Virus record (IMG/VR): IMGVR_UViG_3300021964_000348
Span: 1-29,393 of that record
Origin: a virus
Length of the DNA: 29,393 nucleotides
Direction: 5' to 3' (one strand)
Each line of letters begins with the position of its first letter. Positions within the stretch are counted from its first letter, which is position 1. A model generated the notes under the pieces. The model was not told the DNA's origin. It searched no databases and worked only from the letters and a program-made list of their open reading frames with translations. The position numbers and the translations under genes were made by a program. Below are positions 9,956 to 29,393 of this stretch, piece after piece.

Positions 9956-9979
9956 TTTGCGTTTTTCCTAGTTCACTTG

Positions 9980-9987: not shown

Positions 9988-9992
9988 CGTTT

Positions 9993-10457: not shown

Positions 10458-10462
10458 AATAC

Positions 10463-11420: not shown

Positions 11421-11425
11421 ACCAA

Positions 11426-11433
11426 TATTTATC
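11426..11433 (-). promoter_or_regulatory. Weak late-promoter-like octamer overlapping a stop codon (GATAAATA)
   Basis: The same GATAAATA octamer as in two gaps further left spans the TAA stop of the 697-aa fibre gene. The next ATG is only 5 bases downstream, which would make that transcript nearly leaderless. It may be a real initiation site for the following genes, or a chance product of the stop codon context. Confidence 0.28.
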
Positions 11434-13522
11434 CTACCGTTAACCACGTGCCATTAGCCTGCTTCTGAACAGTCTGTTTGTATCTATCATAAACGGTAGC
11501 ATTACCACCGTTACCGTTTCTTGGTGCGTTGTAAACTCTTTCATTCCAGAACGCAACCTTTGTTCCTGTAGGAAAACTCGCATACGTGGCCTGCACATTG
11601 GCTAGTGTTGTTGCACCTGCCCAATAAGGATTTATTCCTTGTGTTGCAGCATCCACATACTGTTTAGTTGCTGCGTGTAAATTTGCTGTAGGGTTAGAAT
11701 GTAGCGTTAAGAATCCAGTCATTGTATCGCCGGATTTTAAAACGTTATTTGTTGCAGTTGTAGCAGTTGTAGCATTACCTGTTAAGTTTGCTGTAATTGT
11801 TCCTGCACTAAAGTTTCCACTTGCATCTCTTGCCACTACCTTGCTTGCAGTATTTGCACTTGTTGCATCCACATCAAATTGTCTCGATGCTAACCCGTCA
11901 TAACTTGTTCCATTAAGATAAGCACCTGGTATGAGATCTGCTACTGCCGGAGACCCCCAATAAGGCGCACCTCCAGTGCCGCCGGTATGCAGTATTTCAC
12001 CTGCGGTTCCTGCAGGAAGCAACGCAGTTGCTCCAGACGCAGTCTGGTAAGCAAAGGAGCCTGCGGCTCCGCCCGCGATATTTGCAGCGGTTGTTGCTAG
12101 AGTGGCTGTATCAGCGTTTCCTTGTAAACTACCTATGAAAGTATTAGCATGGACATTATCCCATTCTAAATTAGATTTTCCTAAATCAACATCTCCATTA
12201 GTTGTTGGAACCAGTGCACCATTGGCTCCTGTTCCTGCCGTTACCGAAACATCAGGAGATATAATTTTTATAGAAGAAGTATCGGTTCCATCATCTACTG
12301 TAATTGTTAATTGTCTAGTGGCTGTTAAACTGGAGTTTGTTCCTGATGACGCAATGGTTAAATTACTGTTTACTAAAATATTTCCAACTACTTCTAAACT
12401 TATGAGGTTGCCTACCTGCTGTAAATTACTGTTTATAACATTTGTTGCTAGAGATATCCCTGTCAGTGTATTTGCCGCTGCTGGAACTGTAATGTCATCC
12501 TGTCCATCAAACGCAACACCGTTGATATTTCTCGCTGTTCTCAATTTTGTTGCACTGAAAGCATTACCACTTAGGCTAGGTCCAACAAATGAATTTGCCT
12601 GTATTACGTCAAATCTTGAAGTTCCTGTTGTGGCAGTTACATTACCGTATAATTCTCCTGAAAGATTAGCAGTGATTAGTCCTGCTGCAAATCCTCCGGC
12701 TGCATTTCTTGAAACAATTGTTCCTATGCTGTTTGCCGAAGTTGCATTAACGTCCCATGTAATATCGCTGCTACCATTAAATGAACTTCCTGTAATGTAA
12801 TCTCCCGGTCTCAACGGTTCTGTTGTTGAAGAAGTTATCGTGATGTCTCTGGTTCCATCAAATCCGGTTCCATTAATTTTTCTAGTTGTTTGTAATTCTG
12901 ATGCCGTGTCAGCATTTCCGTGTAGGTTACCCTTAATAAATGTATTGCTGTTTAGTGTAATTCCTGCATCAAGTTGATCAAATCCTGCTCTCGTGTTGGT
13001 AGATCCTAATCTAAATGGAACTCCTGTAACAATGCCAACGACCGTGCCATCGACCGTTAGTTCTATCGCGGCATGATTAATTGCTGTGTCCGATACCAAG
13101 GTTGTGCTTCTTGCTCTTGTCGTATCAAACCCTTCAGCCGTTTCTGGACCTATGAATACCCAACCTGAACCATTATAGGTATGCAATGTATTGTGTGGTG
13201 TCTTTAACCAAAATGCGCCTGTTGGAGGATCAACTGGTGGGGTTCCGGACAGTTTTGCCGCTCCAACCTCTACCCACTTATCACCGTCCCAAACTTTGAT
13301 CACATTTACATTAGTGTCAAACCATAATTGGCCGGCTATTGGTGTTGATGGGGCAGTGTTGTGTGCAAAATTTTCTAATAAAAACAGAAAGTTTTCATTC
13401 TGTGCTTCACCATATCCAATATAATTTCTACCAACAAGTGTAATACTGCTGTCATTGTTTACGGTAGCATCCTGCAACGTTGTAAACGCTGTTCCGTCTG
13501 TCTTATTAATTACGTATGCCAT
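11429..13522 (-). CDS. Long tail-fibre-like protein with internal repeats
   Basis: This 697-aa fibre paralog opens with the shared N-module (about 1-130): NYIGYGEAQNENFLFLLENF, PIAGQLWFDTNVNVIKVWDG, TGAFWLKTPHNTLHTYNG, FIGPE. The long middle is made of Gly/Ala/Thr/Asn-rich beta repeats with recurring TARNINGVAFDG-type units and LTGNATTATTATN-type spacers. One unit of about 55 residues (PGDYITGSSFNG...GLITANLSGELYGN) recurs near the end (PGAYLNGTSYDG...GTITANLTGNAT). HAATKQYVDAATQG (about 616-629) is the linker usually found just before a fibre head in T4-like phages. The final 70 residues (YWAGATTLANVQATYASFPTG onward) form the probable tip. AGGAG lies 7 bases before the ATG. It is likely a distal fibre subunit, possibly for host recognition. 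Confidence 0.87.
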   Translation of the reverse strand: MAYVINKTDGTAFTTLQDATVNNDSSITLVGRNYIGYGEAQNENFLFLLENFAHNTAPSTPIAGQLWFDTNVNVIKVWDGDKWVEVGAAKLSGTPPVDPPTGAFWLKTPHNTLHTYNGSGWVFIGPETAEGFDTTRARSTTLVSDTAINHAAIELTVDGTVVGIVTGVPFRLGSTNTRAGFDQLDAGITLNSNTFIKGNLHGNADTASELQTTRKINGTGFDGTRDITITSSTTEPLRPGDYITGSSFNGSSDITWDVNATSANSIGTIVSRNAAGGFAAGLITANLSGELYGNVTATTGTSRFDVIQANSFVGPSLSGNAFSATKLRTARNINGVAFDGQDDITVPAAANTLTGISLATNVINSNLQQVGNLISLEVVGNILVNSNLTIASSGTNSSLTATRQLTITVDDGTDTSSIKIISPDVSVTAGTGANGALVPTTNGDVDLGKSNLEWDNVHANTFIGSLQGNADTATLATTAANIAGGAAGSFAYQTASGATALLPAGTAGEILHTGGTGGAPYWGSPAVADLIPGAYLNGTSYDGLASRQFDVDATSANTASKVVARDASGNFSAGTITANLTGNATTATTATNNVLKSGDTMTGFLTLHSNPTANLHAATKQYVDAATQGINPYWAGATTLANVQATYASFPTGTKVAFWNERVYNAPRNGNGGNATVYDRYKQTVQKQANGTWLTVG

Positions 13523-13540
13523 CTAACGCTCCTAGTTTCC

Positions 13541-15436
13541 TTACGGTAATACAACTTCTGAAACAAATGACCAAGCACCTGCCGATAGTTGGAAAGTCTT
13601 AATTACTCTTGTTGTTGTTACAACCGGAGCAGGCACTGTTGCATTTGCTATTGAAATGTCAATAAGAGCAGGTGCAGTTCCGGTCGGTGTTACAAAATCA
13701 GCCGTCTGCTCAGTCACTAACGGATTGATGCTTAGGCTTCCTGTTGAATTACTAATAGTTGTGCAAAGTATTCTTGCAGTAACACCGTTTCTATATTCCG
13801 CTGGTGGTGCAAGATTTGCTAGAATCTGTGAAGCAATATATGTGTTTGGTTTACCATCCGATAAATCCATAGAAAATGCTAGACTTCTAGTTTCTATGAC
13901 GTCATCAACATATTCCTTGCTTGCAGCATCTGTTTGATCAATAGGATCGGCCAATCCAGTAATTCTAGGACTGCCAATTAATGCAATATTACCAGTTCCA
14001 TCTGCTTCTAATTCTAGATCATCATTATTTGCAACTGTTTCAATCTTGTTATTTTCTAACCTTAACTGTGTTACCGGAGGAGCACCAGGTCCGATGTTAA
14101 CCACGTTCTGTGTTCCAAAAGAAGTAACACCTGGAATGCTAGTAATTCCACTTCCTAATGAAGTTTCGTTAATTACTGAAACACCATTAATCTTAAATTC
14201 TTTTCCTGATCTTAGATTTATATCTTCTGAACTATTCCAGGCTTTGCCTTTTAGATCAGGTCTTCTACTTGCAGCAGCCGTATCTACATCAGCCCAAACA
14301 AAAATATGATCATAAAGATCATCTCCCGAAGCGCCAACTGTTCCTCGTAGTATGATTCCACCGCCATCTGCAATACTGTTAGAATTAGTTACAGAATTTC
14401 CGGTTTCTGCCATAACAATATTTTTATTTTCTACCGTTAGATCTTCTGTTTTGATTGAAAGAACTTCTCCATCGTCAATGGTCAATGTTCCTCTGATAAT
14501 GGTGTCTCCTTTAATTTCGAGACTACCTCCCATAATAACATTACTATCGGTATATGGCTCATAAATTTTTACTGTTCTGCTCGTAGCATCTACTACCACT
14601 GCATTTTCCTGTAGCAGTCCTTTTCTAACGTTTAATACAAGTGTCTTATCTGAGGCGGAGTTAGTTAAAAATACGTTACCATTGCCGTCAACATATAAGT
14701 TACCTTGGTCACCTGCTCCAAACACTACTCCTAAATTGGTATTAATTCTTACCTGTCCTGCAAATGAGTTTGAAGTATCTCTTCTAGCATATGTTGTTGC
14801 ATCAATGCTTCCGAGTTTTTCTGAGTTTGTTGCGGTAACATCGAATTTCATACCAGAAAGCGTTCCTTGATTGAAGCCTGGGTTAATATCTCCGCTATAT
14901 CCTGCTATTGCATTCTTAGGTGTAAATGCATCCTTTGAAAAAATTCCTAATAACACTCCGTTATTGTAAAGAGAAGTTATTACTCGTGTTTGGTTAAGAC
15001 TATCTAAGATACTAAAAACTTGTAATCCACTCAATCCTTGTGCTTCTGAATAATCAGGTCCTAACAGAATTGTGTTTTCACCGTCAAAGAAATATAACTG
15101 CTTCTGTGTATCGTTGAACCAAAGATCTCCAACTCCTAATGTGCTTGGTTGTGTTGCTGAGATCGTAGCAGAACTTACAGGAACAAATGCTGTTCCACTA
15201 TAAACTTTTAATTTATTTTCAGTTCCGTCAAACCAAATTTGTCCTTTGATAGGATTTACTGGACTCGTTGTTCCTGAAAAATTTTCTAATAATTTAATAA
15301 AGTTTTCATTTAGTGCTTCCCCAAAGCCGCTGTAGTTTTTACCAATAAGAGTAATATCAGTTGATAGTGTATCAACTTGGCCATCTGCTACTGTTGCTAT
15401 AATTGTTCCATCTGTTTTATTAATCTGATAAGCCAT
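13541..15436 (-). CDS. Tail-fibre-like protein
   Basis: This 631-aa protein starts with the shared fibre N-module: NYSGFGEALNENFIKLLENF, PIKGQIWFDGTENKLKVYSG, GDLWFNDTQKQLYFFDG, LLGPD. After it come beta-rich repeats (residues about 180-330) and a short block EGLTI-like (GDTIIRGTLTIDDGEVLSIKTEDLTVENKNIVMAE) of the kind seen in T4-like fibre shafts. DQTDAASKEYVDDVIETRSL (about 500-520) is the linker that precedes a fibre head, leaving a C-terminal domain of about 110 residues ending WSFVSEVVLP. The gene follows its upstream paralog after three bases; the junction TAATAGATG is identical to the one before that paralog. A host-contact role is inferred from the family. Confidence 0.87.
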   Translation of the reverse strand: MAYQINKTDGTIIATVADGQVDTLSTDITLIGKNYSGFGEALNENFIKLLENFSGTTSPVNPIKGQIWFDGTENKLKVYSGTAFVPVSSATISATQPSTLGVGDLWFNDTQKQLYFFDGENTILLGPDYSEAQGLSGLQVFSILDSLNQTRVITSLYNNGVLLGIFSKDAFTPKNAIAGYSGDINPGFNQGTLSGMKFDVTATNSEKLGSIDATTYARRDTSNSFAGQVRINTNLGVVFGAGDQGNLYVDGNGNVFLTNSASDKTLVLNVRKGLLQENAVVVDATSRTVKIYEPYTDSNVIMGGSLEIKGDTIIRGTLTIDDGEVLSIKTEDLTVENKNIVMAETGNSVTNSNSIADGGGIILRGTVGASGDDLYDHIFVWADVDTAAASRRPDLKGKAWNSSEDINLRSGKEFKINGVSVINETSLGSGITSIPGVTSFGTQNVVNIGPGAPPVTQLRLENNKIETVANNDDLELEADGTGNIALIGSPRITGLADPIDQTDAASKEYVDDVIETRSLAFSMDLSDGKPNTYIASQILANLAPPAEYRNGVTARILCTTISNSTGSLSINPLVTEQTADFVTPTGTAPALIDISIANATVPAPVVTTTRVIKTFQLSAGAWSFVSEVVLP

Positions 15437-15439
15437 CTA

Positions 15440-17596
15440 TTATGTTCCTATTGTTTCGTATGCTGGAGGTCCAGATCTAATTATGTAATTTAATGTTTGG
15501 AAGGGGTTCATTATACCTACCGGTTGTCCAAGTGTAGCATCTGATGGTGCTTTGATATCTCCACTGTTAGGCAAATATTTTGCTTCACCAGGGTTATTTG
15601 GACCAAACCCTGGAACTGTTTCCGGTCCCGTTCCTGCTGTTGTTCTTCTAAATCCATAAAACTGATTACCATCAGCATCTAACATGTCGTGTTGGTGATC
15701 AGGAAGATTAGTTAATGTAAGAGTAGTTGAACTTGAACCGCTTGTTGCAGCCAATGTTTCTGCTTCTGTTCCTGATACTCTTGCTGGACTCGGAGTTCCT
15801 CCACCGCCGTCAACAAATCCAGCAGCGTCTGTTGGAACCTGTTGGTTGTTATCCATATTATGCTTACCTAAAGGAAATCTACCTCGTAGGTCTGGAAGTC
15901 TAAAAGTTTTTCCATTAGCACCATTTAGTGCAGCAGATGTATTGTATCTTGTTCCAATTACATCATATAACTGTTGATATTTTAAAATTTCTGTTTCCGA
16001 ACCGTCGCATAGCAAATAACCATATGGAGCACTTGCTCCTGCATACGGCATGATAGTTCCTATAGGAACTCCTAGATCTCCTACAAATGTATCTCTTGAT
16101 TGCTTTAAAAGTCCTGAGCTTCCACCTGATTCTAAGGACGCTCTATAAACTAATACTTGGTCTTCTCTTAATGAAACATTTGGCGTTGGTTCTGATTTAC
16201 TTTTAATAATGTTCGCTGTAAGTTGTGTATTAAAAATCTTACTATAACTTCCAACTTGTCCATCAAATTGTAAAGCAGGTGCAATCACGTCTCCTGTAAT
16301 AGAAAAACTTGTAACATTTTTTAAGTTTGTTGCAGTATTTGCATTACCCGTAATATTACCGCTAATTGTTCCTTCAATTTCATCTGCTTTAATTTTCTTC
16401 GCTACAATATTGTTCCAGCGATTTGATGTATTACCTATATCGTATTGATCGCTAGCGGAAGGTATTATATTAGTCGTTGTTGTAAGTCCAGAAACTGTAA
16501 GTGTGGTTCCAACTCTTAGATTTTTAGATATAGCAACGCCGCCTGCTGTTCTAATACTTCCTGTTTCTAAGTTAATAGAATCGTTTGTGTTAGTTACAAC
16601 CAAAGCGCCAGTTAATCCAAAATCCCCATCTACATCTAAAGTTGCTTCAGGAGAAGCAACATTTATTCCTATTTTATTATCAAGCACACGTAAAATTGTG
16701 CTAGGAACACCGTTTCTGTTTATCTGTAAATCTAAAGAACTACCTGCTGCTGAATTATAAATTTTTGCAGAAGTTGCTGATGTTGTTAGTGTAAAATTAT
16801 TATCGATACCAATAACTAAACCTTGGTTATTTCTAATATTAAAACTTTCTTCTGTTGTATTAACCGTATCACTTCTTAAAAATTTACTTGCTGCAATTTC
16901 TTGACCTGATATATTAAGAGCATCTGCATTTTTAGCAGTTCCTAATAACTTAGGTAAAAATCCGCCTAAGAATATTCCAGAAAAAGTTTCTTCCTCGTCA
17001 GCATTTGCTGCGGTTGCAATGTTGATTCCTGAAAAAATTCTATCAAATCCTTGTATTTGAATTTTAGGAGTAAAAGTATCCTTAGAAACAATCACAACAG
17101 GAATATCTGCAATATAAAATATTAAAACATTTTTATCAAGGTTATCTTGATCGATAATTTTTTCAACTGCTGGTCCATAACGTAGACCGTCGATAGCACT
17201 TTCACTAGGTCCTACCAATAACCATCTTGTTCCTGTATAAATTCTTAACTGTTGATTTGTTGTGTCAACCCATAGTTCTCCAATTTTTGAAGTTTCGACA
17301 CTAGGTTCGGTTGGTCCTTTTTGAATGTTTGATGCTGCTTTCCAATTAGTATTATCGTATAACTGTAGAACACCATTAGTAGTATCATACCACAACTGTC
17401 CTTCTACTGGATTCACTGGTTGATTGGAACTAGCAAAATTTTCTAGAAGTTTTAAAAAGTTTTCAGCAATAATTTGTCCATAACCTGTAACATTTCGTCC
17501 AGGAAAAGTTAAACTTGTGTCCTGACTAGAAGTATTATCAAATACCGTAATTGGACTCTTGTTTTCGCTATCTGTAAAATTTACAATATATGGCAT
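15440..17596 (-). CDS. Tail fibre protein with phage tail collar domain
   Basis: At 718 aa this is the longest of the four fibre paralogs. The N-module is more divergent: GRNVTGYGQIIAENFLKLLENF, PVEGQLWYDTTNGVLQLYDN, IGELWVDTTNQQLRIYTG, LVGPSES. After beta-rich repeats, a phage tail collar domain is clear at about 505-585: PIGTIMPYAGASAPYGYLLCDG, the aromatic and Gly pattern of the family, then FRLPDLRGRFPLG. A following Gly/Thr stretch leads to LTNLPDHQHDM (about 630-640). The His-x-His there resembles metal-binding sites of short-tail-fibre receptor domains. The last residues are NPFQTLNYIIRSGPPAYE. By comparison with T4 gp12-type fibres it probably anchors the phage to the cell surface; the identity with gp12 is not claimed. 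GAGGT precedes the start. Confidence 0.9.
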   Translation of the reverse strand: MPYIVNFTDSENKSPITVFDNTSSQDTSLTFPGRNVTGYGQIIAENFLKLLENFASSNQPVNPVEGQLWYDTTNGVLQLYDNTNWKAASNIQKGPTEPSVETSKIGELWVDTTNQQLRIYTGTRWLLVGPSESAIDGLRYGPAVEKIIDQDNLDKNVLIFYIADIPVVIVSKDTFTPKIQIQGFDRIFSGINIATAANADEEETFSGIFLGGFLPKLLGTAKNADALNISGQEIAASKFLRSDTVNTTEESFNIRNNQGLVIGIDNNFTLTTSATSAKIYNSAAGSSLDLQINRNGVPSTILRVLDNKIGINVASPEATLDVDGDFGLTGALVVTNTNDSINLETGSIRTAGGVAISKNLRVGTTLTVSGLTTTTNIIPSASDQYDIGNTSNRWNNIVAKKIKADEIEGTISGNITGNANTATNLKNVTSFSITGDVIAPALQFDGQVGSYSKIFNTQLTANIIKSKSEPTPNVSLREDQVLVYRASLESGGSSGLLKQSRDTFVGDLGVPIGTIMPYAGASAPYGYLLCDGSETEILKYQQLYDVIGTRYNTSAALNGANGKTFRLPDLRGRFPLGKHNMDNNQQVPTDAAGFVDGGGGTPSPARVSGTEAETLAATSGSSSTTLTLTNLPDHQHDMLDADGNQFYGFRRTTAGTGPETVPGFGPNNPGEAKYLPNSGDIKAPSDATLGQPVGIMNPFQTLNYIIRSGPPAYETIGT

Positions 17597-17599
17597 CTA

Positions 17600-18265
17600 T
17601 TATACCTCACTAAATCCAGTTAGACTTTGAACTCTAACTGTATAGTCAATTTGTAGCAACCTGTTTAATGATTTTTGAACAGGATGAAATACTACATGTG
17701 TTAATAATTTTCCAGATCCGTTTGGATCATAACTTTTTAAACCAAGTTCGTCAAAAACAAAATTTCCATCTAAATTAACACTGTTATCAAATGCTTCCTG
17801 ATCGTCTGGTTCTCCATAGTCAAGTAAACATGAAATAATAATGTCACTATATGTTGATCCGCTAATGTGTCTAATTTCCATCTTGTTTCTTGTAGGATCT
17901 GTATTAGTGGTTGCATTTTGATCAACTACTTTTGAATATGTTTGATTATATAGGCTTGAATTAATTCCTACTGTATTAGGAGTTAAATATGTAATTAAGC
18001 CTGTAGGATCTACAGTGGTTCCGCCTGATCCAAAAATCATCTCATATACTGTGCCAAGACCTTGATTTGATAAACTGTTTACCATTGCCACACTCATATT
18101 TTCATAGTGTATGGCGTTTCTTTTGTCCTGAAAAACTTCACCAGATTCTGGATCAAAAATCTTAATATGACCTTCAAAGTGAAATCCTCCTGTTTCATTA
18201 ACAGCAGGCTTATTATTTTGTTCTTTTTGTGTATCTTTTGGCATAGTTTTCTCTTCGGTTTTCAT
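17600..18265 (-). CDS. Phage virion structural protein, about 221 aa
   Basis: After a polar N-terminus (KTEEKTMPKDTQKEQNNKP) the protein runs GGFHFEGHIKIFDPESGEVF, then KRNAIHYENMSVAMVNSLSN, YEMIFGSGGTTVDPTGLITYLTPNTVG and LLQIDYTVRVQSLTG. I recall this type as a virion structural protein of marine T4-like phages, without a defined place in the particle. The frame is open to 18328, inside the giant gene. Starts at 18265 or 18244 are more natural because they avoid the overlap. An AATAAATA element ends four bases before 18265, and a GAAGAG stretch lies six bases before 18244. If the promoter-like element is real, 18244 (214 aa) is the better start. Stop and next start read TAATAGATG. Confidence 0.82.
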   Translation of the reverse strand: MKTEEKTMPKDTQKEQNNKPAVNETGGFHFEGHIKIFDPESGEVFQDKRNAIHYENMSVAMVNSLSNQGLGTVYEMIFGSGGTTVDPTGLITYLTPNTVGINSSLYNQTYSKVVDQNATTNTDPTRNKMEIRHISGSTYSDIIISCLLDYGEPDDQEAFDNSVNLDGNFVFDELGLKSYDPNGSGKLLTHVVFHPVQKSLNRLLQIDYTVRVQSLTGFSEV

Positions 18266-18269
18266 AGTG

Positions 18270-18277
18270 TATTTATT
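18270..18277 (-). promoter_or_regulatory. Candidate late promoter (AATAAATA)
   Basis: Minus-strand TGAATAAATA covers the end of the giant gene and the 7-bp gap before the 221-aa structural gene. It is one mismatch from the T4 late consensus and resembles the 9980-9987 site. With the motif at about -10, a start codon at 18244 would have a leader of about 20 bases; ATG 18265 would be near +1. Confidence 0.45.
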
Positions 18278-21200
18278 CAGGTAATCTGGTTGACTTAGCA
18301 GCAATGAACTGACTAATCGGTGATTCATTCGCTAATAAGGTTATTCCAGTGGTTACCGTTGTTTCTCCTCTATCATACCAGCTCTTTCCTTGGCGTTTAA
18401 TTATGGTAATTCTAGTTCCTGCTGGTGCCAATTCTGTTAATCTTACATATGGATTCACTCCGTCGACAGAAAATTCTGCTTCAACTTCCTTGTCGCCTGC
18501 TGGACTTGTTGCTCCTAATGTTTCGTCAAACACTACTAATGGTGTTTTTCTTAGTCTTCTTCCTCCCACAAACACTTCGATTGTATCGCATCTACTGTAT
18601 CCTGTCGGAATAGTTGTAGTATTCCAAGTTGTTGTGGCTGCGAGTGGAACATAATCTAAAGGACCGATCAATAAACTACTACCGTCACTAACAAAATCTG
18701 TTCTCTCCTGTGTCTCTGTATATGGTATATTTTCACTAATGCTTAAATCTACAACATACGAGCCAGCACTGTGCAGTTCTTTAATTGCAGTTCCTTGCAC
18801 ACCTCTTCTAAGTTGCGTTAAAGTATTTCCTGATTTTTCAAAATATTCAATTCTTTCGTTATTAATAACAATTACACCAGGAATATTTCTTTCCTTTATA
18901 GGATTAAACAAATTAGAACTATTTGTAAGTGTTATTTCTGTATCATAATAATTTAAATCATTTGCTAGTTTTACCTCTGTTGTAACATATCTTTGGAATC
19001 TATATATGTTTAACATATCTTTATTCACTTCGTATGCACTAGGAAGTCTAAAAACTTCAGATCCAAACGATACTATGGTGATCAAATCATCCACTGAAGT
19101 ATTGTTTTCTATATAAACTACACCTCTAGGTAGTTCAACTCGATAGTCAATATCTTGTTTTAGCCTTTGACCATTTAAATATACCCAAACATAACTTGCT
19201 GATAATGGATTGAACGGAAGTTCATATACCACCTTTCCTCCTGTTACTTCATCAGATACAATTCTTAATGAAGGATATTCACTAAACCAAGTTACATTAA
19301 TTTTATCATTTTCTGTTAAACTAACTGAATTATCAATAACTAAATTTCCGCCATCGATTGTATATTCGCTACGTAGATTATTTTCAATCTTAATGATATC
19401 TCCTACCGTCAATATTCCCGGCACAATTGTTAATGTTTTTCCTGCACCATCATAAGTATAATCTTGAATGAATGTTCTTTGAATACCATTGACATAAACA
19501 GTAACATTGGCTGAAAGAATTGCGCCTGCTGACTCCTCAGGATCTAAACCAAGTATAAATGAGTTGTTTGTTCCATCATAGGTTGCATATGTTGTATCAA
19601 CACCTCGTAATTTTGTTCCGTCGACATCAACTATCATAGACGAAACAGAACTTTCTCTGTTAAGTTGAACAAAATTATCAAGATCATAACTTCTTGTGCT
19701 ACCATCATGAACTATTGTTTGGTTGTTTACCCTAACAACTGCTTCTAAACTAGAATCAACATCGGTTGCTGCACCTAAACAGACAATTTTAATTGTAGAT
19801 CTAAATGTTGGTTTATTAGCAAATTCAATCAACGTTCTATTTTCTGAATCAACAACACCAGAACTATTCTTAAATATTACATCTGTATCAACTCCATTAA
19901 CAGTAACAAATACATTTGTCGTTTCATTATAATTTGCATTAGTTAAAAACAATGATGTATCGCCGTCTGCTAAAAATTCTTGATAATCTAATATTGCTAC
20001 ACCGCCGATGCCTATAGATAAAATTTCTACAATGCTATCTGCCACTGGCGCCGTATTAAACTCAACTGTATTGTTAATAAGATCAACCGAATAATTTGTA
20101 GAAATTAATTGTCTAATTCCATCTACATACACAATTACAGATTTATTTTCTAATACATTTTGACCAATATCAAAAGTAATTGTAGATCCATCTGATTTGC
20201 TAACTTTGCTCAATAATGTTGAAGCACCACTACCAACTGTATTGAAAACTTTTATGCTGAGACTATCTAATATCTGTCCTGGAATATTTTCTTCTGGTGC
20301 TGGAACTTGATCAGGTCCTATGTATGTCCCGCCGTCGATATTGATGTCTTCGGCATTTGTTCCTGTTGCTGTTACATAGGCTCCTTCGACTCTTGATAAT
20401 GTTCCGCCGGTAATATTTGTATCAACAATGTTAGGATCATTAATTGTAACCGATCCATCGCTTTCAACCGGACGGAAAATTAATATATCTCCGTCATTGA
20501 CTGTGATATAGATACCTATATCCACAATATTGTTTGATCCGTCACCTATAAATGTAGGCATTTGAGCGTGTGGATTCGGAGAAGTTGAAGAATCATTACC
20601 GCTAAAGAAATACGGATCGTCAATTCTAACAATCTTAGGAGACTTAACTTCTTCTGAATATTTTAAATTATCAATAGTTGGTAGTTGCTCTTCGCCTGCA
20701 CGTTTTAGATAAACATTTATTTCTTGTCCGTTAGCCGGAACATAAGGTAATGTCACAAATTCGGTGCTGCCATCACATACGTGATAATAGTCTGAACTAG
20801 ATTCTACACTATCCCAACTGTCTGTAAACCAAGGAAGTGCATCCCAACCACCCGTAACATCAAATGTTGTTCCTTGAATTTGAACTCCACCAAAGTCAAT
20901 TCCAGTCATAAGTTGGTTTAATTCTTTACCTATCATTCCAGAGGTTGGATTATAAATCTTATTGATTCTATTTACACTATCATATATTTCATCATTTTTA
21001 TCATAAGTGATTTTAATAGTGTCGCCTGCTTCTGGTGGAAGTTTAAATATTATTTTACCTTTTAATAAGGAAAAAGTATCAACTGAAGATTTATACAATG
21101 AAATATCATATTCATTTCCTAAAACAAGTTGATTATTTTTAGTAATACTAATTTTTGTCTTGTCCCTAGTTGGGGCGTATTTTAGATCAAAAATAGCAGT

Positions 21201-24200
21201 TGTTCCCGAAGCAATGAATGTTTGGCTATCTGAAAATTGAGAATATAATCCTTCTTTCGAAATTCTATCAAATTTTACAGAAAGAGCAAATGTTCTAGGT
21301 TTAGAATTTCCAAGAATCGGAACGGCTTTGGCAATATCAGTTGAAGTTCCATTTCCTCCTACTAATGTAACTGTAGGAGTTTTAGTGTATCCGCTGCCTT
21401 GATCTGTGACTCTTATTCCGGAAACCTTACCATTTGAAACAAACGCAGTTGCCTTGGCTCCTGTTCCGTTACCTTCAATAACTACTCTAGGTGAAGATAC
21501 GTAACCCGAACCGCCCGATGAAATGTTAATTGAAATGATTCCGTAACCAATATTATCTGCCCACCATTTCCATGGATATTGATTTATTTCATCACTGTTA
21601 TTATTTACAATGATATTTTTGCCCTGCGATAGGTTATAGACTACTGGTAAATCAAAATCAGTTGTGCCAGAGTAATTTGTATCAGTATTATTATATTTGC
21701 TGATATACTCTCTAACGGTAGTTCTATAAGGTTTAATTTCATTTACATAATCAAGATAACTTGTAAGACTATCATTTTTATATGTAGGTCTTTGATCAAG
21801 CTCTCCGACATTATGTGTTGCATTTAAGAAACTAGTTTTAAATGCCCAGTCAACATATGTCTGTTCATAGAAAACATATCTTACACTTTCAAAATACAGA
21901 TAATTCCACTCAACAAGATAGTTTCCAATTAGTATATCTTCCTTAACGGCCTTAAAGATATTTCTTAATTCTTGTGAAGGTTCAATATCATATAAATCAA
22001 CGTCGAAAGATCTATTATTATCAAATCCTACTCCACTTGTAGCAATATCATATAAATCTGTTGATAGAGCAATAGTTCCTCTATATCTGCCAACTAGCTC
22101 GTAATTACCTAATAGTTCTAATGACGATTCTGCTATTTTTCTAAATACTGCCCAACCGCCAGATCCGTATTCTTTAATTCTAAGTAAATCACCTATGGCT
22201 ACTTCTATAGATGGTTCAACTGATACATCTGAAATTTCTTTAATTATTCTGGTTGTCGGTGAATAGCCTGTTTTCCACCAATCAATATATGACCAATACT
22301 TAGTTGTATCAAACCCTTGTGATGCACTTCTAAAGAAACTCTTTCTAATATCATCCCAAGCATAGATTGACCAGTAATTGTTTGCTGTTGAATCTGAATT
22401 TACAAGAACACTAAATCGTCTTGCAATTGCTTCTGCATAACTGTATTTTTTACCCTTGTTAGTAACTGCAACAGCAGTAATTCTACCCTGACTATCAATG
22501 TGCGAAATAGCAGTTGCACCTTCTCCGTCACCAGTTATTGTGATACTAGGACCTAGATAAACTCCAGGAACTTCAGGATCAAATAATTCAGTAGGCTTGT
22601 AACCAAATCCCGGGTCTACAATTGTAATCGAACTTACTTCATTATCAATTACATTAACTGATAATACTGCTTGCTTTACTCTAACCGTTCCTACGGTTTG
22701 TAAATCTTGATAGGTATCAACCGAGGTATCCCACAATTGTAAAGAAACATTCGGAGAAGGATTAATTAATGATAAATTCTCAAAATTAATACTATCTGCA
22801 AATGCTTCTTTAAGTAAAACTTTATTAACGTGCTCGATGAAAATTTTCAAAATAGGCTTTCGATCAATAAACATGCTCTGTCTAGGTCTATATGATACAC
22901 CATACTTTTGTTTTTCAGGAAGATCAGGATCCGGAACTCTGTTACCTTGACTATCGTATCCTACTAAACTATCTAACCATTTAGTTTCTAATTTTTGTGC
23001 AGGTATACTATTTTCGTCACCTTCGGTTAATAGTTGGTATTCGTTATGAACATTATTAATGAAATTTGTTGTAGTATAATATTCAATATTTAATATAGAA
23101 GTATCCTGATTTACAATACTTGTATAATTGTAAAATAGTATCTTATTGGCGTCTGCAAGGGCAACAAAAGTATTACCAAGACTAGAAGGATTAGAAATAA
23201 GAGATGCAACAGATGATGCTGACTCTGTTCTTCCTGTAGTGTTTGGTATTATAGTTTTATTACTAACCCAATAATAGTATTTTGTTTCTGTGGGTTCACC
23301 TGTTAACACATTATAAATTACTTTAGAAGAATATACAGTATCATCATTATACAAAGGTTGTCCTGAGATTCCAATTTGTAATCCTTCTGTAGTGTCTGCT
23401 ACTGCCGACCATTCAGACGGTAATAATTTTGATTCAACCCATTCATAAACATCAATGCTGGCTCCTTCTGCTAGTCTACCCCAATTAGATAATCTATATG
23501 CAGTATCCCCTTGTTCGTAATATAACCACTTAGCAGTTGAAAGATTCCACCATAATTTTCCGACATTTTTTTCATACCATGCAATTTGAGGATCTGTCGT
23601 AACTCCATCAATACCATTTGTATATACAGCAGGATCATATAAAGTTTTATAACTGATATTTCTTTCTGCTGCCGCTAAAACTTTGAGTTTTGCTGGATCT
23701 ACAATTTCTAAATCCTGAATCTTTACATCAGAGTTAGTATCGTATAAACTTACTCGTTTTACAAATTCATTTCGAACAACAGGCGTTTGTGAACTGATTA
23801 CAGTTAAAGGATTAACATTAGGATCTTTTCTAAATAATCTAATTGTTCCCGTTCTATCACCATCAAATGCTATTGTGTTACCGTGCGGTGCTGGTGCAAT
23901 GTAATCAGGAGAACCTACAACAATAACATTTCCTGCACAATCTATACTAGATCCAAACGATTCATTCAATGAAAGATCTTCGTCTAATCTTTCAGATAAG
24001 AAATATGTATTATCTTTTTTCTCAAATACATAAACTGCTCCGGCATATCCTGTATAAGCATTAAATCCTGTTTGGCTCTCATCAAATGTTGTTTGAGAAT
24101 TATCAAATCTTAATGGTGAAGAATATGGTGCATTCTTAGCACCTATGACTATCTTTCCGGTATCTGGAGAAATACACAAGCTCTGTCCAAAGTATTCGTT

Positions 24201-27200
24201 TGGATATTGATTAAAACTTTCAAGTTTTTGTTTTAATCTAAATCTCTGTTGTGTTGAATCCGATTCATACTTAAACACATATGCACTGCCCTGATTTTGA
24301 TAATTTTTATCTGCTTCTGGGCTTGAAATCACAAGTGTATTTCCTGACCAATCTAATGCTAACGTGAAAGCAAATTTATCACCACTGCTTATCGTTTCAG
24401 TAGTATCTAGGTCACTTAATTCTTGTAAACTATCTGCTGTAATTGTTTGAATAAGTTTATAACCAGTAGTTTCTTTTTTGTAGACAAATGCCTTACCAAC
24501 CGCTTCAGATGTGCTATCTCCTACTGGTATCCAAGGTAGTCCGTCTTCTGGGGACTGTCCATAACTTCTAATACTGCTATCAGGACCAACTGCAAATGCT
24601 CCTTCATTAACTAACTGATGATAGCCACCTTGATATTTTACAACATCATTTTGTGTATATTCGTAATTTGCTTGCCAAGGTCCTTTATAATTGTTAAAGA
24701 ACTGACCGTCAGCATTCGGTGCTCCTACTACTAGAAAATCACCTGCATAATTTAAATCTAACGAATTACCAAATAAGTCTCCTTCTTTAATTAATTCTGC
24801 AACTTGATCGTCTGTGAGTAATCCGCCGCCTAGAGTCGAACCGTCGTCTTCAATGGCAATACTCTGTGGTAGAGAAAAACTAGTATTTGTAGGTTCTAAT
24901 CTGATCCAATCGTTAGAGTTTACATCAATGCTACTTCCGTCTCCAGCATTGTCAGAAAGTGCTTTCCAAAGATATCCTTCATGATATACTACACTATCTT
25001 TAGGATAATAAGTTTCTTCTAATACTACACCGGTTCCAATTCCAGACTGTGTAGCAACAAATTCTCTTCCCACTTCACTAACTTCAGCACCGATATCAAC
25101 AAAATCTGTTGTTCCAACTTCACTAATTGTATATGTTCTACCCGGAACGATATCAACTGCATCTATCAAACCACCATTGCGATATTCACCCCTGTAGTTT
25201 TCGTTATGATCAAATACCCAGCCAGCACCTTTAATATTTTTGTAAAGATAAACTTTTCCTCTTATTTCGTTGTTGCCCGGAGCAGACACTACCATGTAAT
25301 AATCGTTTCCGTTTTTAGAAATGCTTACTTTCTTTCCAAAGTATTTGTCACTAGCAGGAAATGGGCTGATAAAATTATCAACTAAGTTCCATTGCTGTGC
25401 AGAATACTCATAAATTGAAATCATTCCTTGCTGAGAATAGCCATCATTATTGCTTCCTGATTCTAGTGCTTGAACATTATTTGTTAATGTCCATTCATTA
25501 CTGTATACATTAATAGAACTACCGTCGCCTATAATTTCTGTAGTTGCTGTCCATAAGTTACCAGCATATAAAACAATGTCTCCGGATGCATAATTTGCAT
25601 TAGGACTGTAAACTCCTTGGTAATTTGATCTAACACCACTAGCAGCAGGAGATCCAATTACTAACCATTTGTAGTCAGGACTGATTGCTAATTCCTCTCC
25701 CCAAGATCCTCTTACTGAATCAACTAATTGAGGAAGAGGTTGTAATATTTGTTTAAGTTGTAAATGATTACCTTGTTCTACATAACAAACTACATAGCCA
25801 CTCTGAGGCATAGATGTTATTGTTTGTTTTTGCAGGTCAGCATAAAGAACTTTAGTTCCGATACTTCGTGGTTCTGAAACACCGAAATTATCAACTAACT
25901 TCGGAAAATATTGAATGTTCTTTTCTACAACTTCCCAAAGACCTTGTGAATTTTTATCAACAAATAGTTTTCCTTTTTGTTTTAATAAAGCAACTGTTTC
26001 AGGATTAATACTGTCATAATTTTCATATCTTGCTTCTTCGAAGAGTAATGGATATGATATTGTGCTTACATCAATAGTTTCAGTCGGATTCTTACCTTCT
26101 ATTTCAAAAGTTACTGTTCTGTCTGTGACTGATTTAATCTGATAAATTCCTTTAAAATCATCTAGAGATTCAGGTATACCGATGAAATCATCTATTGCTA
26201 AATTATGATTCTTTTCGAATCCAACTGTAACAGTATTTGCTTCTGTAGAAATTGTGCTAAAAGGCAAATCAACAATATATTTTGCTCTTAAAACAGTCCA
26301 TTCTTGTTTATCAAATGTTATCCAGATATGAGAATTATTCGTTATCAAACTAATATCTAGATTTAAAATATCTTCTCTAAATTTAACTGTAAATTCAGTT
26401 TGACCTACTTTAACATACCCTGCTGTTCTATCAGGCAACGAATTTACAGTTGGATTAATATTTGTTGTATATGGTGTTGGAGCATAATCAAAATCTTCTT
26501 GTGCTACTCGATAATATCTATCAATAAAGAAATCATTTTTATTTTCTACCACAAGCACAGGTTGAGGATTCATCTTAAACGAATCAGTTTTTAATTTAAG
26601 TTCGATATTATATGCTTGATCAGTTCCACCAAACTCTCCTACCTTAAACGCCCATTCTTCGCTTAATGTTACACCTTGACCTTTTGCTCGACCGATTTTA
26701 TCAAATAATTTTGTGACTGCATTACTAGTTCCTTTTTCTCTAATAAACCCTTGATATAATCTTAACTGTGTAACTTCGTCTTCTGCAAGATTCTGTAGAT
26801 ATTCTCTAGATTGATAACCAATAGTATGTCTAGAAAGTTCTCGCTGGCTCTGGCCTAATCCTTCTGATGTAACATCAAAATAATCACCCATCTGATTTAT
26901 TCTATAATCATAATTAGGTATTAATTGCTTGACTGGATCAGAATCTAAAATAGTCCATCTGTTATCATTAAAGTTTGCCTGACTTGTATGATTTTGTTTG
27001 CTAGTATATCTTTTAGATTTATATAAAACAATATCTCCTAGTCGATAATCTTTATATGGCTGCCAAGCATCAATTGTTACATTATCGAAAATAAAACCTG
27101 GGCTAGTATAATCTCCGTCCCAATCAACTGTTCTAAACCCGATTGATTTAATTCTTTCTTGTCTGTAACCCGTTGGCTTACTAAAAATAACATCGTTGAA

Positions 27201-29369
27201 TACTGTTTTATCGTTGAAAACCGTTACGTGTTCTTTAAGAACATAGTTAACCTTTAAATAATATATTCCAGCGGTGGTATTAGTGGTTTCGATTTTAATT
27301 GTTTGATACGATCTCATAACATTTATATTTTTAATATCCAACGGCTCTCCGTTGTCTTTTAAAATATTATAATCATAAAAACCGTCCAATAGGTTATCAC
27401 CGACACCGACTTGCTTTTTAATTTCTAAAGATACTGCTCCAGGACTTAAAGTTAATAACGAACCTTTGGCCCAGTTTTGTTGTGTCCAGAACATAAATTC
27501 TTTGCTGGCTGTAACAAAGTCTTGCACTACTCTATTTTCAGGACTATAATTTTCAAATACAAATCCTTGTGATTGTAGCCATGCCTGATACCCTAACAGA
27601 AAATCCACAACATCTTGAATTTGATATAAAACTGTTCCGTAACTTAACTGTTCAGTATTAATTGTGTTAAACTGTCTTCTTCTTTGTGCCACTGTTGCGC
27701 CAACAGATGGCAATTCTGGAAGTTTTCTCCACTGGTTGGATTCAAAAGTTTCGGAACTTGTATGTGTTTGTATTGCTCTATAAAAAGCATCTCTGTATTC
27801 TACAATTATTCCATTATTATAATTTTTTCCAGGTTCCCAATATGTAAATCCTTCACTTACACCGCCAACTGAGATAACAGGATCTTTCTGATTTATAACT
27901 GGAGCAAAGTAGTTGAAATAAGGATTAACATCATCATATCCAGTAACTATCCATCCTCCATCAGTTTTTTCTAAAATAACACCACTATATGTTAAACTTA
28001 ATATAGGAGAACTTACATTAAAGATAATATCATAATTTTCATTTGGTATAAAAATACTTGAACTTGAAGAATTTGGATTTTTGCTGTCTAATAGATATTT
28101 TTGCTGTTGAGTATCAACAAATCCTGATAGTCTAGAAGTTAATCTTACATTAATATTACCAAGCATTTCTTGTGCATCTAATAACGATCTTCCTGATGCT
28201 TTAATATAAGATGCCAGATAGTTTGCTAAACCAGAAGTTTGTAAACTTCCAGTTACCGGTAACTGTAAATCTTTCTTTGTTAACAGAATATTTGTTTGCC
28301 TGTCAACTATTTGATTAACCGCATTTCTTTTAGTATTTGACCTATCAAAATTTGAAATAATAAATTCAAAAGGTCTTAGTAAACTTAGTGCAATTATTTT
28401 AACAAAAGGAAATTCAGAACTAGATCTGTATGCATATTCGACAGGATTAATATCACCTAATTTAAAGTCTCCTTTATTATTAATTAAAGTAAAACCTTTT
28501 GCCAATCCTGATTCTAACGGACTTAATAACTTACCATCTTTATCAACTGGAATGTGTTCAATTATAGATGGTCTCGCATATCTGTCATGAATACCAGCAC
28601 GTTCACCGTGTCTAACTCTACCGTCTCTGATATCCTCCCAAAGAATTAAGTTACCACTTGTATAAGGTGCTACACCATATTCTTTGTCCCACCAAGTTGG
28701 CTTTTCACTAAAACCTAAAATTTCCCAAGGACAACGATGTGGTCTATCTGTATCATAAAACCATTGATATACTCCTCTCCAATAGCCTGGTAGATTAGCA
28801 GTTCCATCTGGAGTTGACATATTTGAATAGGTGTATGTAAAAGGTGCACCTTCTTCGTAATACGTGTTTGTTGTATAAGATAGATTGGTATTTGCTACCC
28901 ATCTTAAAAACTCTTGATTGGTTACAGAATCTTGTTCTATTTTGTTAAACAGAGCATTTCCATACCATCCACCAAAGTTTGCATCTATATCAAATACATT
29001 ATGATCATATTCTTGTTTTATATTATTATAAATTCTATATTCAAGTTCCAATAACAAATCGTCTCTAAAATCACCGTATGCTATTGTTATACTTCCGTCA
29101 TGTCCTTGAATTACCTCTTGGGGTTCTCTATAGGTATCATCAATAAACTTCATTGGAGTATATTTTTTATACAAACCAATCGAAGTCGGCGTTGGTGGAA
29201 TATGACATGCTGCTGTAGAAACATATTCTCTAATTTCTATGTAATCTCTTTCAACTAAATCTACAGTTAAATTAACATAACTGAAAGCACTATTAAAATT
29301 ATAATCTCTACCGTGTAACAGTTGCCTTCCATTAATATAAACATAAACCGCACGTCTGCTTAAGGTAGT
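18273..29369 (-). CDS. Giant virion/tail structural protein with beta-propeller, CBM-like and VNG-type repeats (5' end uncertain)
   Basis: About 3,700 codons are open; residues here are counted from TTG 29174, the first usable start codon. Coding resemblance continues upstream to 29369 (RRAVYVYINGRQLLHGRDYNF, VPPTPTS-like HIPPTPTSIGLYKKYTP), where an in-frame TAA precedes it, so the true start lies beyond or the stop is an error. Domains in order: a conserved N-terminal part (about 1-440, with YTYSNM and WFYDTDRPHRCPWE); five short carbohydrate-binding-like modules near 445-480, 702-740, 1186-1228, 1388-1424, 1497-1548; FG-GAP-like beta-propeller blades about 1145-1783 (VIGSPAAS, VVGAPNAD, VIGAKNAP); GSGY repeats about 2178-2245 and 2545-2612; then VNG-type beta modules to about 3590. 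This suggests a very long tail or baseplate-attached fibre that binds surface glycan. No transmembrane segment is visible. Confidence 0.88.
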   Translation of the reverse strand, partial: TTLSRRAVYVYINGRQLLHGRDYNFNSAFSYVNLTVDLVERDYIEIREYVSTAACHIPPTPTSIGLYKKYTPMKFIDDTYREPQEVIQGHDGSITIAYGDFRDDLLLELEYRIYNNIKQEYDHNVFDIDANFGGWYGNALFNKIEQDSVTNQEFLRWVANTNLSYTTNTYYEEGAPFTYTYSNMSTPDGTANLPGYWRGVYQWFYDTDRPHRCPWEILGFSEKPTWWDKEYGVAPYTSGNLILWEDIRDGRVRHGERAGIHDRYARPSIIEHIPVDKDGKLLSPLESGLAKGFTLINNKGDFKLGDINPVEYAYRSSSEFPFVKIIALSLLRPFEFIISNFDRSNTKRNAVNQIVDRQTNILLTKKDLQLPVTGSLQTSGLANYLASYIKASGRSLLDAQEMLGNINVRLTSRLSGFVDTQQQKYLLDSKNPNSSSSSIFIPNENYDIIFNVSSPILSLTYSGVILEKTDGGWIVTGYDDVNPYFNYFAPVINQKDPVISVGGVSEGFTYWEPGKNYNNGIIVEYRDAFYRAIQTHTSSETFESNQWRKLPELPSVGATVAQRRRQFNTINTEQLSYGTVLYQIQDVVDFLLGYQAWLQSQGFVFENYSPENRVVQDFVTASKEFMFWTQQNWAKGSLLTLSPGAVSLEIKKQVGVGDNLLDGFYDYNILKDNGEPLDIKNINVMRSYQTIKIETTNTTAGIYYLKVNYVLKEHVTVFNDKTVFNDVIFSKPTGYRQERIKSIGFRTVDWDGDYTSPGFIFDNVTIDAWQPYKDYRLGDIVLYKSKRYTSKQNHTSQANFNDNRWTILDSDPVKQLIPNYDYRINQMGDYFDVTSEGLGQSQRELSRHTIGYQSREYLQNLAEDEVTQLRLYQGFIREKGTSNAVTKLFDKIGRAKGQGVTLSEEWAFKVGEFGGTDQAYNIELKLKTDSFKMNPQPVLVVENKNDFFIDRYYRVAQEDFDYAPTPYTTNINPTVNSLPDRTAGYVKVGQTEFTVKFREDILNLDISLITNNSHIWITFDKQEWTVLRAKYIVDLPFSTISTEANTVTVGFEKNHNLAIDDFIGIPESLDDFKGIYQIKSVTDRTVTFEIEGKNPTETIDVSTISYPLLFEEARYENYDSINPETVALLKQKGKLFVDKNSQGLWEVVEKNIQYFPKLVDNFGVSEPRSIGTKVLYADLQKQTITSMPQSGYVVCYVEQGNHLQLKQILQPLPQLVDSVRGSWGEELAISPDYKWLVIGSPAASGVRSNYQGVYSPNANYASGDIVLYAGNLWTATTEIIGDGSSINVYSNEWTLTNNVQALESGSNNDGYSQQGMISIYEYSAQQWNLVDNFISPFPASDKYFGKKVSISKNGNDYYMVVSAPGNNEIRGKVYLYKNIKGAGWVFDHNENYRGEYRNGGLIDAVDIVPGRTYTISEVGTTDFVDIGAEVSEVGREFVATQSGIGTGVVLEETYYPKDSVVYHEGYLWKALSDNAGDGSSIDVNSNDWIRLEPTNTSFSLPQSIAIEDDGSTLGGGLLTDDQVAELIKEGDLFGNSLDLNYAGDFLVVGAPNADGQFFNNYKGPWQANYEYTQNDVVKYQGGYHQLVNEGAFAVGPDSSIRSYGQSPEDGLPWIPVGDSTSEAVGKAFVYKKETTGYKLIQTITADSLQELSDLDTTETISSGDKFAFTLALDWSGNTLVISSPEADKNYQNQGSAYVFKYESDSTQQRFRLKQKLESFNQYPNEYFGQSLCISPDTGKIVIGAKNAPYSSPLRFDNSQTTFDESQTGFNAYTGYAGAVYVFEKKDNTYFLSERLDEDLSLNESFGSSIDCAGNVIVVGSPDYIAPAPHGNTIAFDGDRTGTIRLFRKDPNVNPLTVISSQTPVVRNEFVKRVSLYDTNSDVKIQDLEIVDPAKLKVLAAAERNISYKTLYDPAVYTNGIDGVTTDPQIAWYEKNVGKLWWNLSTAKWLYYEQGDTAYRLSNWGRLAEGASIDVYEWVESKLLPSEWSAVADTTEGLQIGISGQPLYNDDTVYSSKVIYNVLTGEPTETKYYYWVSNKTIIPNTTGRTESASSVASLISNPSSLGNTFVALADANKILFYNYTSIVNQDTSILNIEYYTTTNFINNVHNEYQLLTEGDENSIPAQKLETKWLDSLVGYDSQGNRVPDPDLPEKQKYGVSYRPRQSMFIDRKPILKIFIEHVNKVLLKEAFADSINFENLSLINPSPNVSLQLWDTSVDTYQDLQTVGTVRVKQAVLSVNVIDNEVSSITIVDPGFGYKPTELFDPEVPGVYLGPSITITGDGEGATAISHIDSQGRITAVAVTNKGKKYSYAEAIARRFSVLVNSDSTANNYWSIYAWDDIRKSFFRSASQGFDTTKYWSYIDWWKTGYSPTTRIIKEISDVSVEPSIEVAIGDLLRIKEYGSGGWAVFRKIAESSLELLGNYELVGRYRGTIALSTDLYDIATSGVGFDNNRSFDVDLYDIEPSQELRNIFKAVKEDILIGNYLVEWNYLYFESVRYVFYEQTYVDWAFKTSFLNATHNVGELDQRPTYKNDSLTSYLDYVNEIKPYRTTVREYISKYNNTDTNYSGTTDFDLPVVYNLSQGKNIIVNNNSDEINQYPWKWWADNIGYGIISINISSGGSGYVSSPRVVIEGNGTGAKATAFVSNGKVSGIRVTDQGSGYTKTPTVTLVGGNGTSTDIAKAVPILGNSKPRTFALSVKFDRISKEGLYSQFSDSQTFIASGTTAIFDLKYAPTRDKTKISITKNNQLVLGNEYDISLYKSSVDTFSLLKGKIIFKLPPEAGDTIKITYDKNDEIYDSVNRINKIYNPTSGMIGKELNQLMTGIDFGGVQIQGTTFDVTGGWDALPWFTDSWDSVESSSDYYHVCDGSTEFVTLPYVPANGQEINVYLKRAGEEQLPTIDNLKYSEEVKSPKIVRIDDPYFFSGNDSSTSPNPHAQMPTFIGDGSNNIVDIGIYITVNDGDILIFRPVESDGSVTINDPNIVDTNITGGTLSRVEGAYVTATGTNAEDINIDGGTYIGPDQVPAPEENIPGQILDSLSIKVFNTVGSGASTLLSKVSKSDGSTITFDIGQNVLENKSVIVYVDGIRQLISTNYSVDLINNTVEFNTAPVADSIVEILSIGIGGVAILDYQEFLADGDTSLFLTNANYNETTNVFVTVNGVDTDVIFKNSSGVVDSENRTLIEFANKPTFRSTIKIVCLGAATDVDSSLEAVVRVNNQTIVHDGSTRSYDLDNFVQLNRESSVSSMIVDVDGTKLRGVDTTYATYDGTNNSFILGLDPEESAGAILSANVTVYVNGIQRTFIQDYTYDGAGKTLTIVPGILTVGDIIKIENNLRSEYTIDGGNLVIDNSVSLTENDKINVTWFSEYPSLRIVSDEVTGGKVVYELPFNPLSASYVWVYLNGQRLKQDIDYRVELPRGVVYIENNTSVDDLITIVSFGSEVFRLPSAYEVNKDMLNIYRFQRYVTTEVKLANDLNYYDTEITLTNSSNLFNPIKERNIPGVIVINNERIEYFEKSGNTLTQLRRGVQGTAIKELHSAGSYVVDLSISENIPYTETQERTDFVSDGSSLLIGPLDYVPLAATTTWNTTTIPTGYSRCDTIEVFVGGRRLRKTPLVVFDETLGATSPAGDKEVEAEFSVDGVNPYVRLTELAPAGTRITIIKRQGKSWYDRGETTVTTGITLLANESPISQFIAAKSTRLPE
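18400..20160 (-). repeat. Array of VNG-type beta modules in the giant protein C-terminus
   Basis: Units of the form xVxVYVNGxx....DYTx....xLTI....GDxIxI occur as KSVIVYVDGIRQ (about 20110), NVTVYVNGIQR (about 19490), SYVWVYLNGQRL (about 19180) and TIEVFVGGRRLR (about 18570). A related unit, RRAVYVYINGRQLLHGRDY, is at the other end of the protein (about 29357-29230). Each unit has a central Gly and a following Asp-Tyr or equivalent and ends with a hydrophobic strand. Confidence 0.6.
23825..25740 (-). repeat. FG-GAP-like beta-propeller repeats in the giant protein
   Basis: At least five blades share a pattern of FG.S, a Gly/Asn/Ser turn, a hydrophobic strand ending VIGSP or VVGAP, then a Tyr-rich strand such as VYVFEK or SIYEYS. 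Examples are YFGKKVSISKNGNDYYMVVSAP, DLFGNSLDLNYAGDFLVVGAP, YFGQSLCISPDTGKIVIGAK and SFGSSIDCAGNVIVVGSP. Calcium-type D-x-N-x-D loops of integrin blades are weak or absent. Confidence 0.6.
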
Positions 29370-29393
29370 TTAATCAAATTGTTCTGAAAGACT

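Follow-up and report, generated by a model that had tools for sequence, protein, structure and literature searches.

Chitin-binding-type modules in the core and on the propeller of a giant phage baseplate protein: docking pieces or sugar binders?

Introduction

What might modules that resemble the chitin-binding domains of enzymes be doing in a giant protein of a phage baseplate, and is the holding of sugar even their main business? The question is raised by a stretch of DNA of 29,393 nucleotides (IMG/VR virus record IMGVR_UViG_3300021964_000348), the whole of which is here termed the window. A sequence-only reading of it had picked out five segments with a CBM5/12-like pattern, three of them set in or between the blades of a beta-propeller, and considered that a propeller studded with glycan-binding inserts would be an unusual receptor-binding design. 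The modules and the propeller fare well below. Their use is another matter, and the answer tentatively put forward is that they may be docking or clamp modules of a wedge protein.

A giant gene after gp6

The source of the window is an uncultured virus of bacteria and the gene concerned encodes a giant tail-baseplate protein, of which the fragment present, P0001 (18273..29153, minus strand, 3626 aa; the codon of residue n begins at window position 29153-3(n-1)), is a candidate for the gp7-position baseplate wedge protein. Its IMG/VR relatives have ~4,600 aa and start ~1,030 aa further upstream and, since in most of the complete rows residue 1 or 2 of P0001 is aligned with residue 1,021-1,045 of the relatives, roughly four fifths of the gene, counted from its 3' end, lie in the window. 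The contig ends 21 bases beyond an in-frame stop (29370-29372), at a point where the frame of the relatives is open and runs on upstream for about 1,000 codons. As both flanks of this stop are homologous to those open-frame relatives, either the sequence is faulty here, at the edge of the contig, or the gene is truly interrupted; among the relatives it is found intact. A near-DNA search of the phage collection with the window gave zero matches.

Part 1 of the conserved core (residues 4-866; 26556..29144, minus) is common to RaK2, PBECO4, PA5oct-like phages, Atu_ph07 and others, and part 2 (residues 1783-2500; 21654..23807, minus) is C-terminal of the propeller insert. The AlphaFold2-type model of residues 1-880, m392753e1ba4f, made with 46 relatives, has pLDDT 78.9 and pTM 0.65. 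Further on, at residues 2536-2615 (window 21309-21548), there is a repeat block of the type 'GGSGY..(S/T)P.V.I.G.GTGA.A', which has matches among the PHROGs for head closure and for baseplate wedge; it is seen again in proteins of Atu_ph07 and Phosso, including inside their insert at the place of the propeller.

Which baseplate protein is it? The order hub lysozyme, gp25-sized ORF, gp6 wedge, giant protein is found in RaK2, PBECO4, BF and Hallingskeid, and the order wedge gene, giant gene in PAC2, Atu_ph07, Phosso and Vibrio 2.275. In the reference relatives the gp6 wedge gene is immediately followed by the giant gene (gp6 itself would lie beyond the end of the window), and in some annotated ones gp10-like or fibre genes come after the giant gene. 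From T4 gene order, the place directly after gp6 is what we take to be that of gp7, and it is because of gene order that a gp7 identity is proposed: P0001 may belong to a contractile, T4-like phage of the jumbo type and be its baseplate wedge protein at the place of T4 gp7, a claim held jointly with the docking or clamp reading below and just as tentatively. Profile searches of the PDB with the core and with the N-terminal part gave no gp7 chain, and gp7 was not among the matches listed by the fold search of residues 1-880. As the alignment tool used, VIA, re-ranks Foldseek's list only, the missing fold match is not evidence against gp7; as profile and fold searches both missed it, the claim is of 'gp7-position' and not of 'gp7 homologue'.

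The neighbouring position also has modules in some phages: of the wedge proteins at the gp6 position, that of Vibrio phage 2.275 bears three CBM5/12 modules and those of Atu_ph07 and L110 one each, the ORFs in question being L013 4695-8558, L012 4883-8479 and L110 2762-6406. Elsewhere in the window, four fibre-like ORFs (8195-9955, 11429-13522, 13541-15436 and 15440-17596) have in common an N-terminal block of the 'NENF..LLENF' type, one of them with a collar domain (65.8 bits) and another with a sub-threshold Peptidase_G2 match. Radical SAM-like and 2OG-Fe(II) oxygenase-like ORFs (240-1604 and 10463-11077), both below Pfam cut-offs, lie by the tail genes.

Five modules and their fold

All five segments that had been quoted lie in minus-strand P0001, within a range that was right to a few residues at each end, and their pattern is above chance, whole P0001 scoring 61.9 bits with Pfam CBM_5_12 (E 5.7e-17, cut-off 26.2). 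Modules 1 (residues 436-480; 27714..27848, minus) and 2 (residues 695-738; 26940..27071, minus) are inserts in the conserved core, outside the propeller, and exceed the 26.2-bit cut-off singly, with 33.0 and 35.5 bits. Module 3 (residues 1179-1225; 25479..25619, minus) and module 5 (residues 1490-1546; 24516..24686, minus), in the strand 2-3 loops of propeller blades 2 and 4, are singly below it, with 23.6 and 18.3 bits. Module 4 (residues 1379-1421; 24891..25019, minus), in the linker between blades 3 and 4, when taken alone has no CBM_5_12 match in Pfam and is counted as a module because its orthologues in relatives match. Over all five sites, 43 of 49 sampled module sequences match CBM_5_12 at E<=0.1, and the profile of these 49 (alignment A7, from 215 modules), when run against the PDB, retrieves chitin-binding domains at 7e-9 to 4e-7, with deacetylase DA1 at 6.9e-9 and ChiA1 at 1.3e-7. 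The GDGSSI-type stretch attributed to three modules is indeed in modules 3 and 4; module 5 has PDSSI instead.

In the model of residues 1-880, module 1 is best matched by VIA to modules of chitin oligosaccharide deacetylases (Z 7.2-7.4; 3wx7_A at Z 7.4, rmsd 1.2 A over 45 residues), and to ChiA1 1ed7 at Z 5.2, rmsd across its chitin-module matches being 1.2-1.4 A over 40-45 residues. The best match of module 2 is the Milano tailspike N-terminal module (8fqc_P1, residues 74-118; Z 8.1, rmsd 1.3 A over 45), followed by the 7-7-1 tail fibre 9rkv_M (Z 7.7), these spike domains superposing at 1.3-1.4 A; the same list has the Anabaena CIS cap 7b5i (Z 6.6), the T4 head 7vrt (Z 5.6) and the vertex protein gp24 1yue (Z 4.9). 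By the tool's own note Z values of 7-8 are modest, yet the small domain is nearly fully covered, the rmsd is low and the sequence profile agrees. The three-stranded CBM5/12 fold is seen in modules 1 and 2 by VIA superposition and in modules 3-5 by DSSP within the larger model, and on models and profiles together the modules are predicted to be of CBM5/12 fold.

How many has the whole protein? Counted with our own profile in relative ORFs of at least 4,500 aa, there are six modules in 37 of the 48, seven in 7 and five in 4, and in 46 of the 48 one module starts before residue 330, i.e., upstream of the content of the window.

A propeller with domains in its loops

The seven-bladed FG-GAP / integrin-alpha-like beta-propeller (residues 1102-1788; 23790..25850, minus) bears modules 3-5. 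FG-GAP_2 matches P0001 with 66 bits (Pfam cut-off 23) in 3 stretches, and an AlphaFold2 model of residues 1060-1800, made with 50 relatives, has mean pLDDT 80 and pTM 0.80. Its DSSP strands, read with the sequence, give seven four-stranded blades in a closed ring. In model numbering, to which 1059 is to be added, blades 1-3 are at 43-78, at 95-109 plus 184-203 and at 217-255, and blades 4-7 at 405-419 plus 495-513, at 539-586, at 594-615 plus 647-663 and at 677-689 plus 701-729; module 3 is at 120-166, module 4 at 320-362 and module 5 at 431-487, with block pLDDT of 67-87, 64-77 and 72-86, respectively. The proposal that modules are 'in or between blades', two of them splitting a blade, is thus borne out by the model, with module 3 in blade 2, module 5 in blade 4 and module 4 between blades 3 and 4. 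The blades close around the inserts, all seven being formed in the AlphaFold2/DSSP check without the module segments, and the inserts are separable from them: natural relatives that lack them keep the propeller.

By VIA-align the propeller is most like the head of integrin alpha-L (5e6u_A; Z 34.6, rmsd 3.1 over 358 residues), and integrins also make up most of the other top matches, among which there are some WD40 propellers with Z of about 31. In the alpha-I integrins the I domain is inserted in a propeller loop of the top-face type. Judged by loop type and not by coordinates, modules 3-5 would share the face that is of the integrin-ligand type; in integrins the 2-3 and 4-1 loops form the top face, one 3-4 loop being described as bottom-face in the part of the source available (PMC4563375). 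Directly before module 4 there is a 'TYTI...GTTDF' mini-domain (residues 1330-1377; 25023..25166, minus), closely alike at this place in 7 of 51 aligned sequences, which alignments suggest is a second mobile cassette. Domains of the 'TYTI..GTTDF..GTG.V' type are also seen inside module 3 of L089 and inside module 5 of L020.

FG-GAP_2 is plentiful in one reference phage, the Sinorhizobium phage Phosso (PV764938), where 42 matches are spread over several other ORFs, some as long as 3,182 and 3,702 aa, at 48-69 kb and 92-94 kb.

Cassettes present and absent

Nine of 60 matched phage records were examined as reference jumbo phages. Module 2 is cleanly absent in all nine, with continuous flanks, and module 1 is absent in the same clean manner in five (RaK2, PBECO4, BF, Hallingskeid and Vibrio 2.275) and present in PAC2, Atu_ph07, Phosso and SCTP-2. 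In those five, core segment 1 leads directly to segment 2 without the propeller, and a search for FG-GAP in them gave no match. Among 47 aligned cores, 45 have module 1 and 33 have module 2, which leaves 14 without the latter (alignment A5, in which 46 of 49 kept relatives, from 65 spanning ORFs, are used, L009, L125 and L133 being dropped as their stretches are too long). Among 51 aligned propellers, module 3 is in 51, module 4 in 49 and module 5 in 51 (alignment A2, with 50 of 74 region-spanning relatives, out of 86 matched ORFs, after a redundancy filter); in L085 and L086 module 4 is the only one missing.

A bare propeller, lacking modules 3-5, is found in seven relatives, L131, L134, L148, L150, L154, L156 and L170, which were chosen by eye, as rows with 1-2 modules plus propeller matches, and so are not a random set. 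There the site of module 3 has 41-61 aa as against 97-99, that of module 4 has 62-100 as against 146-197 where the module is present, and that of module 5 has 29-42 as against 88-99. From alignments and models, it appears that the scaffold was undisturbed when a lineage gained or lost cassettes, and a stepwise build-up of core, module 1, module 2, propeller and modules 3-5 would be consistent with the pattern of presence and absence. Recent shuffling of modules between sites was considered too and is ruled out: for 215 of 215 modules the nearest neighbour is a module of the same site, and so each site has been inherited as such, not reshuffled.

In majority identity the modules, at 0.57-0.61, appear about as conserved as the blades, at 0.55-0.71, with module 1 as the exception. 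Within the clade of the window module 2 has 0.733 as against 0.731-0.753 for the core, and module 1, with 0.596, is below the 0.73-0.75 of the core. There are invariant Trp and Tyr positions, and the last aromatic is nearly so: in module 1 it is W in 27, Y in 9, F in 7 and L in 2 of 45 occupied positions, and in the other modules W throughout.

Arrays of such modules also occur at the start of fibre-like ORFs. In L179, at 6477-11897 and 11970-19001 (contig G002, 68-87 kb), two adjacent ones begin with 7-8 tandem CBM5/12 modules, after which come a segment that by eye is beta-helix-like and then propeller repeats of the WxSVAYGNG type.

Discussion

What, then, are the cassettes for? The reading to which we incline, at somewhat less than even confidence, is that they are baseplate docking or clamp modules rather than glycan binders. 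A wedge protein at the gp7 position would have been enlarged by bolt-on domains, with a seven-bladed propeller inserted between two core segments and with CBM5/12 cassettes, five in the window and usually six in full-length relatives. The propeller would be a platform at the baseplate rim, and from its outer face cassettes would project that hold, by protein-protein contacts, the N-termini of tail fibres or tailspikes, or else neighbouring parts of the wedge, direct sugar binding being secondary or absent. The closest virion structures of the module fold, in Milano, in the 7-7-1 spikes and in the T4 capsid, act as a protein-protein clamp. In the accessible part of PMC10811340, the receptor-binding proteins of most of the contractile phages studied attach to BW3, the equivalent of T4 gp7; the contact with BW3 in Milano is made by spike-domain residues 100-115, which end at the last Trp of the domain. 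In T4, as the part seen of PMC3185693 has it, adjacent subunits of the capsid are bridged by a chitin-binding-like insertion domain. In these phages it is the spike or the capsid that has the domain (Milano gp124, the N-terminal domains of the 7-7-1 fibre, the insertion domain of gp23/gp24), whereas in P0001 it is on the wedge protein. Weighing against docking, the best matches of module 1 are modules of chitin-metabolism enzymes, the near-invariant last aromatic would also fit a sugar-stacking residue, and within the clade of the window module 1 is conserved less well than the core.

In ChiA1 the conserved aromatic has a sugar-stacking role, and quite possibly, though this is thought the less probable, the modules are true CBMs that hold a host surface polysaccharide, be it GlcNAc-rich LPS, capsule, peptidoglycan or chitin, with the three on the propeller face forming a multivalent adhesion head of the baseplate, reminiscent of the inserted I domain of integrins. 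The scores of modules 1 and 2 above the CBM_5_12 cut-off, the 1.2 A fit of module 1 to modules of chitin enzymes, the match of the pooled profile to DA1 and ChiA1 and the last aromatic are all what true CBMs would have, and the propeller's best match is to a ligand-binding head. The two fibre-like ORFs of G002 that start with 7-8 tandem modules might be cited in the same sense, but the arrays are N-terminal, which in Milano is the tail-binding end, and so they can be read either way. In phage phi11 a baseplate propeller is used for a GlcNAc receptor, according to the part of PMC4901313 available. However, the modules appear to evolve no faster than the blades, which is unlike a fast-evolving receptor binder, and P0001 sits at the baseplate-wedge (gp7) position and is not an identified receptor-binding gene. 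Domain D2 of TSP1 of phage CBA120 also matches 1ED7, and its authors, in the portion of PMC3966878 seen, state that sugar binding by such head domains had never been reported. Rather unlikely is the still more specific proposal that a propeller on the wedge, with three sugar-binding cassettes on loops of the ligand face, is an independently built integrin-like adhesion head, added stepwise to a bare propeller, with six cassettes in the whole protein; if true, there would be up to 36 binding sites around the six-fold baseplate.

Need the modules have a partner at all? They could be largely neutral spacers or rigid surface bumps in permissive loops, retained as their loss is not easy. The clean presence or absence at loops with flanks unchanged is what this would lead one to expect, as is the hopping of 'TYTI' domains, which use these loops too and are seen even within modules 3 and 5; such a role is nevertheless improbable given the long retention of modules 3, 4 and 5 (51, 49 and 51 of 51), the six modules in 37 of 48 ORFs of at least 4,500 aa and the invariance of Trp and Tyr. 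That the resemblance to CBMs is a chance pattern, the segments being simply propeller strands, has in its favour that modules 3-5 are singly below the Pfam cut-off or unmatched, and is so improbable that it can be set aside: in the model the ring of seven blades, of four strands each, is closed with none of these segments needed, modules 1 and 2 can be overlaid on modules of known structure, and the Pfam and PDB profile scores together with the seven bare-propeller relatives rule it out.

Parts of the assembly were already known. The PAC2 protein is annotated as a 'chitin-binding type-3 domain-containing protein' and the gp6-position protein of Vibrio 2.275 as 'carbohydrate-binding module family 5/12', and a separate Sinorhizobium phage protein is described as integrin-like in the part of PMC11242549 at hand. 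The giant virion structural proteins of jumbo phages (PHROG 10938; RaK2 gp465, PBECO4 gp538, Atu_ph07 gp180, PAC2 XAI93979) are like P0001 in the core, with 22-34% identity, and in their place after gp6, but of the nine reference proteins all are without module 2 and five without module 1 and a propeller match. The integrin alpha-subunit propeller likewise has seven FG-GAP blades and domains in loops of the top-face type (2-3 and 4-1); it differs in that identity is 18% and P0001 has three CBM5/12 inserts, is of a phage baseplate and has no beta subunit. With the CBM5/12 domains of ChiA1 (1ed7) and of deacetylases fold and profile are shared, but the putative CBMs of P0001 are embedded in a virion protein. 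There are propellers on baseplates in phi11 gp45 and PhiKZ gp131C; that of phi11 gp45 has five blades and is part of an RBP trimer, and CBM inserts are not mentioned in the available part of that paper (PMC4901313). In the CC-licensed PMC literature, as far as its text was accessible, no description was found of CBM modules set in a phage propeller. What appears to be new is the combination, a wedge-protein propeller with CBM5/12 loop cassettes together with natural bare versions of it.

The relatives provide a natural series, from the bare core, through the addition of module 1 and of module 2, to the bare propeller, the propeller with three modules and the one from which module 4 has been lost, which lets the effect of each domain on the phage baseplate be tested. 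The matter bears on whether the many domains of phage virion proteins that are annotated as 'chitin-binding' hold sugar or fasten proteins to one another and, if such domains do clamp, both the annotations and the receptor predictions built on them mislead.
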